DNA of 64,000 bases, from positions 10,327,305 to 10,391,304 of the forward strand of contig NC_092120.1 in the NCBI RefSeq assembly GCF_045679555.1. The letters are read 5' to 3'. The first letter of the stretch is position 1, and each line of letters begins with the position of its first letter. The position numbers and the translations under genes are program-made. This document shows, piece after piece, positions 15,307-58,518 of the stretch. The DNA is from Salvelinus alpinus. Its lineage: Eukaryota > Chordata > Actinopteri > Salmoniformes > Salmonidae. A model generated the notes under the pieces. That model made no database searches. It was not told the origin of the DNA and saw only the letters and a program-made list of their open reading frames with translations.

Positions 15307-16925
<1,619 letters not shown>

Positions 16926-30850: not shown

Positions 30851-32392
30851 ATGTTGAGCACAAACTACGCTGCGTCTTGGTCCGATCCCTGCTACACCTC
30901 CTCTTCAGACGAAGAGGAGGAAGGCTGCCGTTACAGAACCACCCACCAAACTCGGACCAAGCAGCGTAGTAACGGGCAGCAGCGACAGCAGCAGCAGCGG
31001 CCCATTACACAGGACTCCTGGACATGGGAGGAAATTCTGGAGGGTAAGGGACACTGGGCTAAGATTGGAGAATATCGCCGCTCTCGTGAAGAGCTGGAGG
31101 CAGCTAAAGCCGAGGAGCGGTGGTATGAGGAGGCAGCACGGAAGCGTGGCTGGAAGCCTGAGAAGAAACCCCAAACATTTCTTGGGGGGGGTGGCTAAAG
31201 GGGAGTGTGGCGAAGTCAGGTAGGAGACCCTGCGCCAACTTCCCGGGCTTACCGTGGAGAGCGAGAGTACGGGCAGACACCGTGTTATGCGGAAGAGCGC
31301 ACGGTGTCTCCTGTACGTGTGTATAGCCCGGTGCGGTACATCCCAGCTCCACGTATCGGCCGGGCTAGATTGAGCATTGAGCCAGGGGCCATGAAGCCGG
31401 CTCAATGCATCTGGTCTCCAGTGCGTCTCCTTGGGCCGGTATACATGGCACCAGCCTTACGCATGGTGTCCCCGGTTCGCCAGCACAGCCCAGTGCGGGT
31501 TATTCCACCTCCCCGCACTGGTCGGGCTACGGGGAGCATTCAACCAGGTAAGGTTGGACAGGCTCGGTGCTCAAGGGAGCCAGGAAGCCTTCACGGTCCG
31601 GTATATCCGGTGCCACCTCCTCGCTCCAGTCCAGTACCACCAGTGCCAACACCACGCACCAGGCTTCCTGTGCGTCTCCAGAACTCTGTTCCTCCTCCAC
31701 GCACTCTCCCCGTGGTGCGTGTCTCCAGCCCGGTACCACCAGTTCCGGCACCACGCACCAAGCCTACTGTGCATATCCAGAGCCCTGTACGCACTGTTGT
31801 TTCTCCCCGCACTAGCCTTGAGGTGCGTAGCTACAGCCCGCCAGTCATGAGCTGCCCTCCAGTCATGAGCTGCCCTCCAGTCATGAGCTGCCTTCCAGTC
31901 ATGAGCTGCCCTCCAGTCATGAGCTGCCCTCCAGTCATGAGCTGCCCTCCAGTCATGAGCTGCCCGCCAGTCATGAGCTGCCCGCCAGTCATGAGCTGCC
32001 CTCCAGTCATGAGCTGCCTTCCAGTCATGAGCTGCCCTCCAGTCATGAGCTGCCCTCCAGTCATGAGCTGCCCTCCAGTCATGAGCTGCCTCTCTGTCCG
32101 GAGCTGCCTCTCTGTCCGGAGCTGCCACTCTGTCCTGAGCTACCTCTCTGTCTTAAGCTACCTCTCTGTCTTAAGCTACCTATCTGTCATGAGCTGTCCC
32201 TCAGCCCGGAGGAGTTTCCTCAGTCTAGTGGGGACCTTTGTGAAGGTTCCTAGGCCAAGGTCGGCGGCGAGGGTCGCCACTCAAAGGACGCTAAGGAGGG
32301 GGACAAAGACAATGGTGGGGTGGGATCCTCGTCCAGCGCCGGAGCCGCCACCGCGGACAGATGCCCACCCAGACCCTCCCCTAGAGTTTTAG
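30851..32392 (+). CDS. Single-frame ORF of the LTR element, interrupted by one TAA, proline-rich
   Basis: The first part (30851-31198, 115 aa) starts inside the 5' LTR and includes an acidic SSSDEEEE stretch, a Gln/Arg-rich stretch and a charged helix-like region (EYRRSREELEAAKAEERW). TAA at 31196-31198 follows a G-run. The same frame then continues through 32392 without another stop. It contains repeated VPPPRT/SPVPPVP proline-rich segments and a hexapeptide array (31838-32198). The function is unknown; the first part could be a Gag-like remnant. GTG at 31205 is the first start-like codon of the second part, so whether that part is translated is unclear. Confidence 0.5.
31838..32198 (+). repeat. 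18-bp coding minisatellite, about 20 units
   Basis: Fourteen units encode PPVMSC or LPVMSC. They are followed by about six diverged units encoding LSVRSC, HSVLSY, LSVLSY and LSVMSC. The array keeps the reading frame throughout. Confidence 0.93.
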
Positions 32393-33450: not shown

Positions 33451-33601
33451 TGTGTAATAGAATAAATGAGGCAAAAACTAATGTATACATTAATAAATGC
33501 ATTTCTATAGTTTCCTAAATATTTTCCCAATGGTGGGGGGCCAAGATGGAGGCATGGTGGCTTCAACACAGAGCCCCTATCAGTCATCTAGTGTATATAT
33601 A

Positions 33602-35208
33602 CAGTGGGGAGAACAAGTATTTGATATACTGCCGATTTTGCAGGTTTTCCTACTTACAAAGCATTTAGAGGTCTGTAATTTTTATCATAGGTACACTTCA
33701 ACTGTGAGAGACGGAATCTAAAACAAAAATCCAGAAAATCACATTGTATGATTTGTAAGTAATTAATTTGCATTTTATTGCATGACATAAGTATTTGATC
33801 ACCTACCAACCAGTAAGATTTCCGGCTCTCACAGACCTGTTCGTTTTTCTTTAAGACGCCCTCCTGTTCTCCACTCATTACCTGTATTAACTGCACCTGT
33901 TTGAACTCGTTACCTGTATAAAAGACACCTGTCCACACACTCAATCAAACAGACTCCAACCTCTCCACAATGGCCAAGACCAGAGAGCTGTGTAGGGACA
34001 TCAGGGATAAAATTGTAGACCTGCACAAGGCTGGGATGGGCTACAGGACAATAGGCAAGCAGCTTGGTGAGAAGGCAACAACTGTTGGCGCAATTATTAG
34101 AAAATGGAAGAAGTTCAAGATGACGGTCAATCACCCTCGGTCTGGGGCTCCATGCAAGATCTCACCTCGTGGGGCATCAATGATCATGAGGAAGGTGAGG
34201 GATCAGCCCAGAACTACACGGCAGGACCTGGTCAATGACCTGAAGAGAGCTGGGACCACAATCTCAAAGAAAACCATTAGTAACACACTACGCCGTCATG
34301 GATTAAAATCCTGCAACGCACGCAAGGTCCCCCTGCTCAAGCCAGCGCAAGTCCAGGCCCGTCTGAAGTTTGCCAATGACCATCTGGATGATCCAGAGGA
34401 GGAATGGGAGAAGGTCATGTGGTCTGATGAGACAAAAATAGAGCTTTTTGGTCTGAACTCCACTCGCCGTGTTTGGAGGAAGAAGAAGGATGAGTACAAC
34501 CCCAAGAACACCATCCCAACCGTGAAGCATGGAGGTGGAAACATCATTCTTTGGGGATGCTTTTCTGCAAAGGGGACAGGACGACTGCACCGTATTGAGG
34601 GGAGGATGGATGGGGCCATGTATCGCGAGATCTTGGCCAACAACCTCCTTCCCTCAGTAAGAGCATTGAAGATGGGTCGTGGCTGGGTCTTCCAGCATGA
34701 CAACGACCCGAAACACACAGCCAGGGAAACTAAGGAGTGGCTCCGTAAGAAGCATCTCAAGGTCCTGGAGTGGCCTAGCCAGTCTCCAGACCTAAACCCA
34801 ATAGAAAATCTTTGGAGGGAGCTGAAAGTCCGTATTGCCCAGCGACAGCCCCGAAACCTGAAGGATCTGGAGAAGGTCTGTATGGAGGAGTGGGCTAAAA
34901 TCCCTGCTGCAGTGTGTGCAAACGTGGTCAAGAACTACAGGAAACGTATGATCTCTGTAATTGCAAACAAAGGTTTCTGTACCAAATATTAAGTTCTGCT
35001 TTTCTGATGTATCAAATACTTATGTCATGCAATAAAATGCAAATTAATTACTTAAAAATCATACAATGTGATTTTCTGGATTTTTGTTTTAGATTCCGTC
35101 TCTCACAGTTGAAGTGTACCTATGATAAAAATTACAGACCTCTACATGCTTTGTAAGTAGGAAAACCTGCAAAATCGGCAGTGTGTCAAATACTTGTTCT
35201 CCCCACTG
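33602..35208 (+). mobile_element. Tc1/mariner element, apparently intact
   Basis: It is of the same family as 15307-16925. The left end 'cagtggggagaacaagtatt' and right end 'aatacttgttctccccactg' are perfect inverses over the first 20 bp, and the inverted repeats extend to roughly 200 bp. TA borders both sides (33600-33601 and 35209-35210). At 1607 bp it has the usual length for Tc1 elements with long inverted repeats. Confidence 0.96.
33970..34992 (+). CDS. Tc1-family transposase, uninterrupted, 340 aa
   Basis: This is a DDE transposase that cuts and pastes its own element at TA sites in the nucleus. The N-terminus has the paired-like helix-turn-helix DNA-binding region ([20 protein letters not shown]), followed by a second helical region ([20 protein letters not shown]). 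Catalytic residues are D153 ([11 protein letters not shown]), D244 (QHDNDPKHT) and E279 ([11 protein letters not shown]), with 34 residues between D244 and E279, the DD34E spacing of Tc1. The length equals that of typical Tc1 transposases. No stop or frameshift is present. The start at ATG 33970 follows 'cctctccacaa' and matches the related copy at 15679. Most salmonid copies are broken, so an open frame suggests a recent insertion; activity is not shown by sequence alone. Confidence 0.95.
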
Positions 35209-35214
35209 TATATA

Positions 35215-36785
35215 CACTGCTCAAAAAAATAAAGGGAACACTTAAACAACACAATGTAACTCCAAGTCAATCACACTTCTGTGAAATCAAACTGTCCACT
35301 TAGGAAGCAACACTGATTGATAATACATTTTACATGCTGTTGTGCAAATGGAATAGACAACAGGTGGAAATTATAGGCAATTAGCAAGACACCCCCAATA
35401 AAGGAGTGGTTCTGCAGGTGGTGACCACAGACCACTTCTCAGTTCCTATGCTTCCTGGCTGATGTTTTAGTCACTTTTGAATGCTGGCGGTACTTTCACT
35501 CTAGTGGTAGCATGAGACGGAGTCTATAACCCACACAAGTGGCTCAGGTAGTGCAGCTCATCCAGGATGGCACATCAATGCGAGCTGTGGCAAGAAGGTT
35601 TGGTGTGTCTGTCAGCGTAGTGTCCAGAGCATGGAGGCGCTACCAGGAGACAGGCCAGTACATCAGGAGACGTGGAGGAGGCCGTAGGAGGGCAACAACC
35701 CAGCAGCAGGACCGCTACCTCCGCCTTTGTGGAAGGAGGAGCAGGAGGAGCACTGCCAGAGCCCTGAAAAATGACCTCCAGCAGGCCACAAATGTGCATG
35801 TGTCTGCTCAAACGGTCAGAAACAGACTCCATGAGGGTGGTATGAGGGCCCGACATCCACAGGTGGGGGTTGTGCTTACAGCCCAACACCGTGCAGGACA
35901 TTTGGCATTTGCCAGAGAACACCAAGATTGGCAAATTCGCCACTGGTGCCCTGTGCTCTTCACAGATGAAAGCAGGTTCACACTGAGCACATGTGACAGA
36001 CGTGACAGTTCTGGAGAACGTTCTGCTACCTGCAACATCCTCCAGCATGACCGGTTTGGCGGTGGGTCAGTCATGGTGTGGTGTGGAATTTCTTTGGGGG
36101 GCCGCACAGCCCTCCATGGGCTCGCCAGAGGTAGCCTGACTGCCATTAGGTACCGAGATGAGATCCTCAGACCCCTTGTGAGACCATATGCTGGTGCGGT
36201 TGGCCCTGGCTTCCTCCTAATGCAAGACAATGCTAGACCTCATGTGGCTGGAGTGTGTCAGCAGTTCCTGCAAGAGGAATGCTATGGATTGCTATGGACT
36301 GGCCCGCCCGTTCCCCAGACCTGAATCCAATTGAGCACATCTGGGACATCATGTCTCGCTCAATCCACCAACGCCACGTTGCACCACAGACTGTCCAGGA
36401 GTTGGCGGATGCTTTAGTCCAGGTCTGGGAGGAGATCCCTCAGGAGACCATCCGCCACCTCATCAGGAGCATGCCCAGGCGTTGTAGGGAGGTCATACAG
36501 GCACGTGGAGGCCACACACACTACTGAGCCTCATTTTGACTTGTTTTAAGGACATTACATCAAAGTTGTATCAGCCTGTAGTGTGGTTTTCCACTTTAAT
36601 TTTGAGTGTGACTCCAAATCCAGACCTCCATGGGTTGATAAATTTGATTTCCATTGATAATTTTTGTGTGATTTTGTTGTCAGCACATTCAACTATGTAA
36701 AGAAAAAAGTATTTAATAAGAATATTTCATTCATTCAGATCTAGGATGTGTTATTTTAGTGTTCCCTTTATTTTTTTGAGCAGTG
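35215..36785 (+). mobile_element. Tc1/mariner element, CACTGCTCAAAAAAATAAAG family
   Basis: The ends 'cactgctcaaaaaaataaag' and 'ctttatttttttgagcagtg' are inverses, with TA on both sides (35213-35214 and 36786-36787). It lies 6 bp from the preceding Tc1 element, in a TATATA stretch. It carries a frameshifted transposase. Confidence 0.95.
35539..36527 (+). pseudogene. Tc1-family transposase, frameshifted
   Basis: The coding frame opens at [20 protein letters not shown], a helix-turn-helix region; the initiator codon here is GTG rather than ATG. The first catalytic Asp lies in [11 protein letters not shown] and the second in [10 protein letters not shown]. The frame is lost near 36280 and resumes as [17 protein letters not shown], with the catalytic Glu, running to a stop at 36527. 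A short deletion also appears near 36000, where RDSSGERS replaces the longer basic segment expected in the family. It cannot make a full transposase. Confidence 0.85.
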
Positions 36786-43407: not shown

Positions 43408-44565
43408 GTTAACAATCACAAGGCCGCCTGCCAGACAGAATACCAGGGTTCGTTCTCAAAGCATGTGCAGGCCAGCTGGTAGGTGTCTTCAGATATTTTC
43501 AATATCTCCTTGTCCCAGTCTGTAATCCCAACATGTTTCAAGCTGACCAACATTGTTTAAGTGACTATCGCCCTGTAGCACTCACATCTGTAATTATGAA
43601 GTGCTTTGAAAGGCTGTTCATGACACACATCAACAACATCATCCCAGACTCCCTAGACCCACTCCAATTTGCATACTGCCCCGATCCACAGATGATGCAA
43701 TCTCAATTGCACTTCACACTGCCCTCTCCCACCTGGACAAGAGGGGAAATAACTATGTGAGAATGCTGTTCCTAGACTACAGCTCAGCGTTCAACACCAT
43801 AGTCCCCACTAAGCTCATCACCAAGTTAGGGACCCTGGGACTGAACCCATCCCTCTGCAACTGGACCCTGGACTTGCTGACAGGTCGGCCCCAGGTGGTG
43901 AGGGTAGGCAACAACACCTCCACCCCGATGTCCCTCAACACAGGCCCACCGATGGGTTTGTGCTTAATCCCCTCCTGTACTCCCTGTTCACCCACGACTC
44001 AAACACCATCATCAAGTTTGCTGACGACACAACGGTGGTAGGCCTGATTACCGGTGACAGTGAGTCAGCCTGCAGGGAGGAGGTCAGAGACTTACCAGTG
44101 TGGTGCCAGAACATCAACCTCTCCCTCAACTTCAGTAAGACCAAGGAGCTGATCATGGACTATAGGAGAAAAAGGGGAGAGCACGCCCCCATCCACATCG
44201 ACAGGGCTGTTGTGGAGCGGGTCGAGAGCTTCAAGTTCCTTGGCGTCCACATCATTAATGACTTAACATGGTCCACACCCACACAGTCGTGAAGCGGGCA
44301 CGGCAGCACCTCTTTCCCCTCCGGAGGCTGAAAAGATTTGGCATGGGCCCTCGGATCCTCAAAGTTCTACAGCTGCACCATCGAGAACATCTTGACTGGC
44401 TGCATCACCGCTTGGTATGGTAAATGACAGCAAAGCGCTATAGAGGGTGATGTGAACAGCCCAGTACATCACTGGGGCTGAGCTCCCTGCCATCCAGGAC
44501 CTTTTATATCAGGCAGTGTCAGAGGAAGGCCCGAATTGCCATAGACTGTTCACTCTGCTACCGTA

Positions 44566-48534: not shown

Positions 48535-52869
<4,335 letters not shown>

Positions 52870-56032: not shown

Positions 56033-56917
56033 TTTTCAATGTGTGTCCTAGTTTATTTAGTCATGGGACATTCAAGGCATCCAGCCAGGTTCCCCAAGAA
56101 TTTTGTAGCAGCCTACCAAGGGGACCATACTTTTCTAAAATGGGTTGGAAATTATATTTATTTCATCATCATGGTTCGTTTGACACAATTTAAATATTCA
56201 AATGACACCATTATCAGACATGACATCTATCAGTATGACGACACATCTGTATCACAGGCAGCCTACTGTATTTACCGTATAACCATTGTTTTTAAACATC
56301 TCAAATTGACTGAAAATATATTTTAAAGAACAAATTAACTGGGACAATGTAGTTTGGTTTATTCAAGTTGTGTTAACAACAGTGACAGAAACATGACATG
56401 TTTCTCCCCATCCTTCCCAAAGGGCTTCATGACTCATAAACTCATGCCTGGTTGGTAGTTAGTTAGGTAATGATTAAAGGTAGACAGAGGTATATCAAGT
56501 GTGCTTGCGTACTTTCAAGTTAAGTATTAGGTGGGTCACAGGAGTCATAAAAACTTCCCAATTGATGGCACTGATGGATGGGATGTTGGGGATGGGAGCT
56601 TTCTTCATGAGCCACAAATATTTGAAGTTAAAAAAAACAGTGAAAAGAGGAACAGGGCCAACAGGAAAGCTCAAGATATATATATATATATAAGGTTATA
56701 TGGACATGAGGTCACAAACATTTTCAGCATGGTTGTATGTATGGTCCCAATAGGCCTATGTAACTCCAGTTAATAAGCTTAACCTTTTAATTAGGCAGAT
56801 TGATACCATGACTTCAAAGGATGCTGGGTAGTACAACACATTGCACATGTGAAGCAACTGTGTAAGAAAATTGGAGTGCATTAGAGCACCCTGAATGTAA
56901 AGCTGGATTAAGAGAGA
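56033..56917. other. Intergenic, no gene recognised
   Basis: Unique-looking AT-rich sequence with a short (TA)n run at about 56676-56691. No coding feature could be supported. Confidence 0.4.

Positions 56918-58518
<1,601 letters not shown>

Follow-up and report, generated by a model that had tools for sequence, protein, structure and literature searches.

An Open-Frame Tc1/mariner DD34E Element of Salvelinus alpinus, Probably a Young Copy from a Recently Mobile Family

Introduction

Sleeping Beauty, as recounted in PMC9777934, was reconstructed from inactive salmonid elements, and an earlier note on the DNA analyzed here, made from the sequence alone, treated the Tc1 elements of salmonids as generally inactive relics. 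As far as the cited passages go, the literature supports this premise in part. Trout Tc1 copies were reported to be transcribed, with seven out of seven cloned ones incapacitated (PMC1192797), and the Group 1 Tc1 elements of fish and lampreys are described as mostly broken and were judged mostly no longer capable of transposition (PMC3516227). SB copies are said to be mostly truncated in salmonids, but more than 100 intact ones are given for a single whitefish, and ZB-like copies are said to be intact in large numbers among fishes (PMC9777934). However, the premise does not extend to every family, as the rainbow trout Tc1-mariner element omyk_TCE_37 (1621 bp) is presented as the most abundant in trout and is called recently active; of 1,072 deletion variants measuring 1610-1630 bp, 1,030 match it above 95% (PMC7959816). 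Active members were also thought possible for DTSsa1, of which one Atlantic salmon copy has a 340-aa frame (PMC2198921); TcMar-Tc1 heads the superfamilies of lake trout in abundance (PMC9291852), and an active piggyBac-like transposon is described from Atlantic salmon (PMC7560756). Since recently active salmonid Tc1 families are already in print, a young open Tc1 copy is of a known kind.

We analyzed one such copy, named L009 (or copy B), in a window of 64,000 nucleotides (C35:10327305-10391304); "the window" denotes this whole stretch, and positions are counted from its first letter. By description rather than by sequence, the 1607-bp L009 is similar in length to omyk_TCE_37 (PMC7959816) and resembles the ZB-like and SB-like DD34E clades of fish, which are given as mostly 1.5-1.7 kb long with a transposase of about 340 aa (PMC9777934). 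With DTSsa1 and Group 1 of lampreys and teleosts it has in common a length of about 1600-1610 bp, CAGT-ending arms of about 200 bp and the frame length of the single salmon copy mentioned above (PMC2198921, PMC3516227). However, six published Group 1 primers mismatch L009 at 27 of 126 bases, a figure that reflects primer sites, which may sit where groups differ, rather than a whole-element comparison (PMC3516227). Set against the published threshold for Group 1, at least 92.5% identity to the consensus, these mismatches suggest that membership of L009 is not supported. The tip and motif letters of L009 were not found in the text of the papers searched. Searches of viral-contig and genome-contig collections with the L009 protein and tip, of phages with the protein and of plasmids with the DNA led nowhere, as did a tRNA scan.

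Materials and Methods

Genome searches covered the assembly that contains L009 itself (2,367,770,401 bases, or 2.37 Gb, in 928 contigs). Two sets of copies were compared. The 53-copy set consists of copy A, a sister element within the window, and 52 full-length loci, drawn from the 40 best matches to L009 among 2596 candidates and from the hits of a helix-turn-helix profile search, in which 150 were scored among 155,633. Ten of the profile loci were chosen for a long listed frame (354-406 aa), one of them being already present as L002, and 5 of 57 loci (L001, L003, L005, L008 and L049) were excluded because they fall short of full length. The C1 sample comprises the first 20 pairs of exact tips lying about 1.6 kb apart on contig C1; this selection skips three shorter pairs (approximately 357, 1297 and 604 bp) and six tips without a partner in that stretch, and by design it contains no copy whose tips are damaged.

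Results and Discussion

The features of L009 and of its transposase are as follows.

33602-35208, + strand: complete Tc1/mariner DD34E element, L009 (copy B), 1607 bp
33600-33601, no strand: TA, left target-site duplication
35209-35210, no strand: TA, right target-site duplication
33602-33799, + strand: left inverted repeat, 198 bp
33615-33625 (outer) and 33789-33799 (inner): direct-repeat core AAGTATTTGAT of the left arm
33627, + strand: private base adjoining the left outer core, T in L009 and C in 52 of 53 aligned copies
35011-35208, - strand: right inverted repeat, 198 bp, 4 mismatches against the left
33970-34992, + strand: transposase open reading frame, 340 aa, ATG start, no stop
33970-34125, + strand: first helix-turn-helix, residues 1-52 (Pfam HTH_SB)
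34177-34389, + strand: second helix-turn-helix stretch, residues 70-140 (Pfam HTH_Tnp_Tc3_2)
34350, + strand: change giving Q127; H in 20 of 20 C1 copies, Q in L009 and L017 only within the 53-copy set
34414-34869, + strand: catalytic domain, residues 149-300 (Pfam DDE_3)
34426-34428, + strand: catalytic D153
34699-34701, + strand: catalytic D244
34804-34806, + strand: catalytic E279

The tips of L009 (CAGTGGGGAGAACAAGTATTTGA) are identical across 23 bp (33602-33624 and 35186-35208), a match that was obtained 0 times in dinucleotide shuffles, and both ends abut TA. Each of the arms, about 200 bp long, carries an outer and an inner direct repeat with AAGTATTTGA in common, which is the IR/DR arrangement of Sleeping Beauty-type elements. 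The last base of the right outer core (35185) is altered in L009, a change common to 8 of the 53 aligned copies, all of them of the L009 lineage. Two N-terminal helix-turn-helix domains precede the catalytic domain, and 34 residues separate D244 from E279, the spacing that defines DD34E elements. The uninterrupted 340-codon frame, the spaced catalytic triad and the exact tips within TA, all of which the earlier note had read from the sequence, were thus confirmed, although what it called 20-bp tips belongs to inverted repeats that are much longer, at 198 bp per arm, and that match imperfectly over that length.

The catalytic residues of Sleeping Beauty carry the same numbers, D153, D244 and E279, as those of L009. 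The Sleeping Beauty transposase is also the top solved-structure match of the L009 protein (5cr4_A, E 3e-86; further structures 5unk and 2m8e), with HTH_SB, second helix-turn-helix and DDE domains in both and an alignment that reaches the C-terminal residue 340, and the arms of both elements have outer and inner repeats. In contrast to these similarities, the L009 protein is clearly diverged, and its family is natural, young and present in high copy number, whereas Sleeping Beauty was rebuilt from dead copies.

Compared with the majority sequence of the C1 sample, the L009 protein has six residue differences (K9R, V98I, S116N, H127Q, A253E and L319V), positions at which the 20 C1 copies have the majority residue with the exception of one L319M. 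Five of the six are each found in 5 to 9 of the 53 copies (L009 counted) at separate loci, indicating that the lineage could still spread despite them, in trans if not by its own means. H127Q is absent from the three closest sisters of L009 and is common only to L017, a more distant copy, in the 53-copy set; together with base 33627 in the left outer repeat, it makes up the private changes of L009 relative to those sisters. The earlier note had named catalytic or DNA-binding substitutions relative to a consensus as what would speak against its reading of this copy. Four of the differences (K9R, V98I, S116N and H127Q) do fall inside stretches matched by the helix-turn-helix profiles, and L009 has N and Q at positions 116 and 127, where all 20 C1 copies, like the Sleeping Beauty chain of the solved structure, have S and H; in the catalytic triad, however, no change was found at D153, D244 or E279.

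L009 has three very close relatives elsewhere in the genome. The copies L009, L010, L011 and L012 lie on four contigs (C35, C10, C9 and C19, respectively), and their pairwise distances are 3, 3, 4, 2, 3 and 3 of 1607 positions; L010-L012 are the copies closest to L009 among the best 40 of 2596 candidates. They form a perfect star, as private differences of 2, 1, 1 and 2 of 1607 sum exactly to the six distances, and a stop has already arisen at codon 261 of L010. The wider L009 lineage (L013-L017) lies at 8-16 differences, with L016 at 12, and nested groups within the lineage received FastTree support of 0.905-0.985. Because only 3-4 of 1607 bases distinguish L009 from three copies elsewhere, it is not an old relic. 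Statements in PMC2198921 that Salmo, Oncorhynchus and Salvelinus split 14-23 million years ago, with 94-95% similarity, imply a rate of approximately 1.1-2.1 x 10^-9 per site per year, which is derived rather than measured. By this rough reckoning, the star would date back about 0.4-0.9 million years, as against roughly 5-10 million for the C1 copies.

Near-identical copies might also represent segmental duplications or assembly copies instead of transpositions. Repeats are hard to assemble, and polishing could make repeat copies falsely alike. In addition, salmonid genomes are described as duplicated (PMC8127823). Against this, the copies lie on different contigs with different flanks. When 900-bp flanks were compared with the low-complexity filter on, no pair among the 52 loci shared a junction-touching same-side flank at high identity, and one flank pair (L006 and L029) matched at 72%. 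Each copy also has its own TA on both sides, as expected of Tc1 targets (52 of 52 flanked full-length loci, L009 among them), the left tip being exact in 52 of 52 and the right tip in 50 of 52. Furthermore, uninterrupted paralogues were found in the window for the sites of two relatives: the site of L016, from the wider L009 lineage, corresponds to 56917-57156 (93%), with TC where the insertion has TA, and that of L051 to 43558-43920 (84%), with one TA. Both alignments cross the junction without a gap there. Further junction-spanning matches include one of L012 to 49545-49727 (77%, with 14 gaps), and an empty site for L009 was not found in the part of the genome compared. Segmental duplication was rejected as the source of the copies since flanks differ among the 52 loci, and we regard duplication or assembly artifact as a very improbable origin of the near-identical copies. 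Near-identical copies at independent sites are the hallmark of a recently active transposon, and the four star copies, which differ at 2-4 of 1607 positions on four contigs and have no high-identity junction flank in common, bear out the suggestion of the earlier note that L009 could be recently mobile. Recent mobility of the L009 family is well supported.

L009 is itself adjoined by a second complete Tc1-type element (window 35215-36785), whose tips CACTGCTCAAAAAAATAAAGGGAACAC are exact over 27 bp and which has TATATA on both sides. Its transposase is split across two frames, with a helix-turn-helix in one and a weak DDE_3 match, below the cut-off, in the other; its CACT ends fit the DTSsa2 and DTSsa7 rows of Table 1 in PMC2198921 by end letters, not by sequence. 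On its left side, L029 likewise directly adjoins the end of a copy of the CACT-type element (compare window 35209-36208). As both L009 and L029 lie beside the end of such an element, the TATATA at its ends may be a favoured target.

The exact 25-mer consisting of TA and the tip occurs 29,361 times in the genome (14,671 forward and 14,690 reverse), and the reversed-pattern control gave 0 and 0 in the same sequence. Copies with both tips exact can thus number no more than about 14,700, an upper figure because some tips are unpaired: of the first 52 tips on C1, 46 pair up, 40 of them as the 20 full-length elements of the C1 sample. The mean distance of these 20 copies from their majority sequence is about 18 of 1607 bases, they differ among themselves by 2.1% on average, and the frame is open in 6 of them. 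In the 53-copy set 44 of 53 frames are open, a value that is inflated and gives no genome rate, given that likeness to L009 and, in part, frame length decided which copies entered the set. Open frames are commonplace in the family of L009. We therefore rejected the open frame as a mark setting L009 apart, and its frequency among the C1 copies makes it weak evidence of competence, a caution that applies to young, large families.

The sister copy in the window is broken, as the earlier note had stated.

15307-16925, + strand: sister copy A, transposase with two frameshifts, right tip with one mismatch

The frameshifts lie near codons 116/117 and 281 of the L009 frame, and copy A differs from L009 at 42 of 1619 aligned bases (the TATATA flanks counted in). 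Across the 53-copy set, changes common to at least two copies comprise 30 nonsynonymous, 10 synonymous and 1 stop, and single-copy changes 53 nonsynonymous, 18 synonymous and 5 stop, where random expectation under an assumed transition weight is 0.70, 0.26 and 0.04, respectively. The pattern of changes is neutral, with no sign of purifying selection on the transposase in this set. A stop at codon 158 (GAG>TAG) was found in only two of the 53 copies, L044 on C3 and L048 on C1, whose flanks do not match. The presence of this stop at two unrelated sites suggests that broken copies have been moved in trans, which would best explain how L044 and L048 come to share it. In the C1 sample, 4 of 20 copies (L062, L064, L073 and L074) have in common a frameshift near codon 162, and two copies have common frameshifts near codons 14 and 171. 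The group of four is possibly a broken subfamily that multiplied; as two of its members are about 4 kb apart, local duplication is also possible.

A second lineage provides further evidence of recent spread. The seven copies L018-L024 show no difference across their 1607 bp. They occupy seven sites, three of them on C8 and one each on C26, C14, C13 and C3, and each has an open 340-aa frame. In a search with L018, full score was reached by these seven only among the best 40 of 2097 candidates, all 40 lying within about 7 differences by bit score; since the choice of the best 40 favours likeness, these matches are no typical sample. At residues 167, 243 and 327, the seven copies read C, N and L, against R, H and M in the C1 majority. 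One of them, L021, lies within a tandem array with steps of about 33 bp.

Taken together, we consider it very likely that L009 is a young cut-and-paste Tc1/mariner DD34E copy of the Sleeping Beauty type that arose in a small recent burst, and that its frame is open mainly because the copy is young, not because it is under selection, while broken sisters were apparently moved in trans. The source of the burst, within a family of the size given above, would now be represented by the four star-like copies L009-L012. Transposase from any intact family copy would bind the outer and inner repeats of both 198-bp arms and excise the element by means of D153, D244 and E279, and the element would then insert at a TA, which is duplicated. 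Which copy supplies the transposase, and whether the L009 protein functions, are matters of inference.

It seems less likely than not that L009 is autonomously competent now, that is, that its transposase and ends work and could move itself and others. Its open frame, full DDE triad and matched tips are consistent with competence, as are the spread of five of its six residue differences to separate loci and the fact that the clade centre, two substitutions away, left four copies. On the other hand, H127Q and the base at 33627 are absent from the three closest sisters, residue 127 is otherwise conserved as H in the C1 copies and Sleeping Beauty, the clade may owe its spread to transposase supplied in trans, and purifying selection was not seen. 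The two private changes fall in or beside functional parts, and we give competence less than even odds. That the L009 protein is instead dead, with a frame open by chance in a copy moved in trans, is a possibility that we entertain tentatively, as one somewhat short of probable. In a simulation without indels, two substitutions left the frame free of stops and with its ATG 92% of the time; open frames persist in 6 of 20 C1 copies despite their much larger mean distance from the majority, and the codon-158 stop is present at two sites. However, the catalytic triad of L009 is unchanged, and the small distances to its sisters exclude an old relic.

Whatever the state of the L009 protein, there may be nearly an even chance that the family still jumps today as a community, in which a few lineages with intact transposase (L018-L024 and the L009 lineage) move both themselves and broken copies, so that the family stays alive without selection on single genes. 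With seven open copies that do not differ anywhere in 1607 bp, and with one stop-bearing copy present at two separate sites, the genome offers a natural system for asking whether a vertebrate Tc1 family still jumps and what share of its movement occurs in trans.

Two further repeats were seen in the window. A fragment at 57705-57878 matches a part of the transposase gene at about 77% identity and probably belongs to a related older Tc1 family. Upstream of L009, positions 31836-32204 hold a tandem array with an 18-bp unit, GCCCTCCAGTCATGAGCT, and higher-order periods of 36 and 54 bp.
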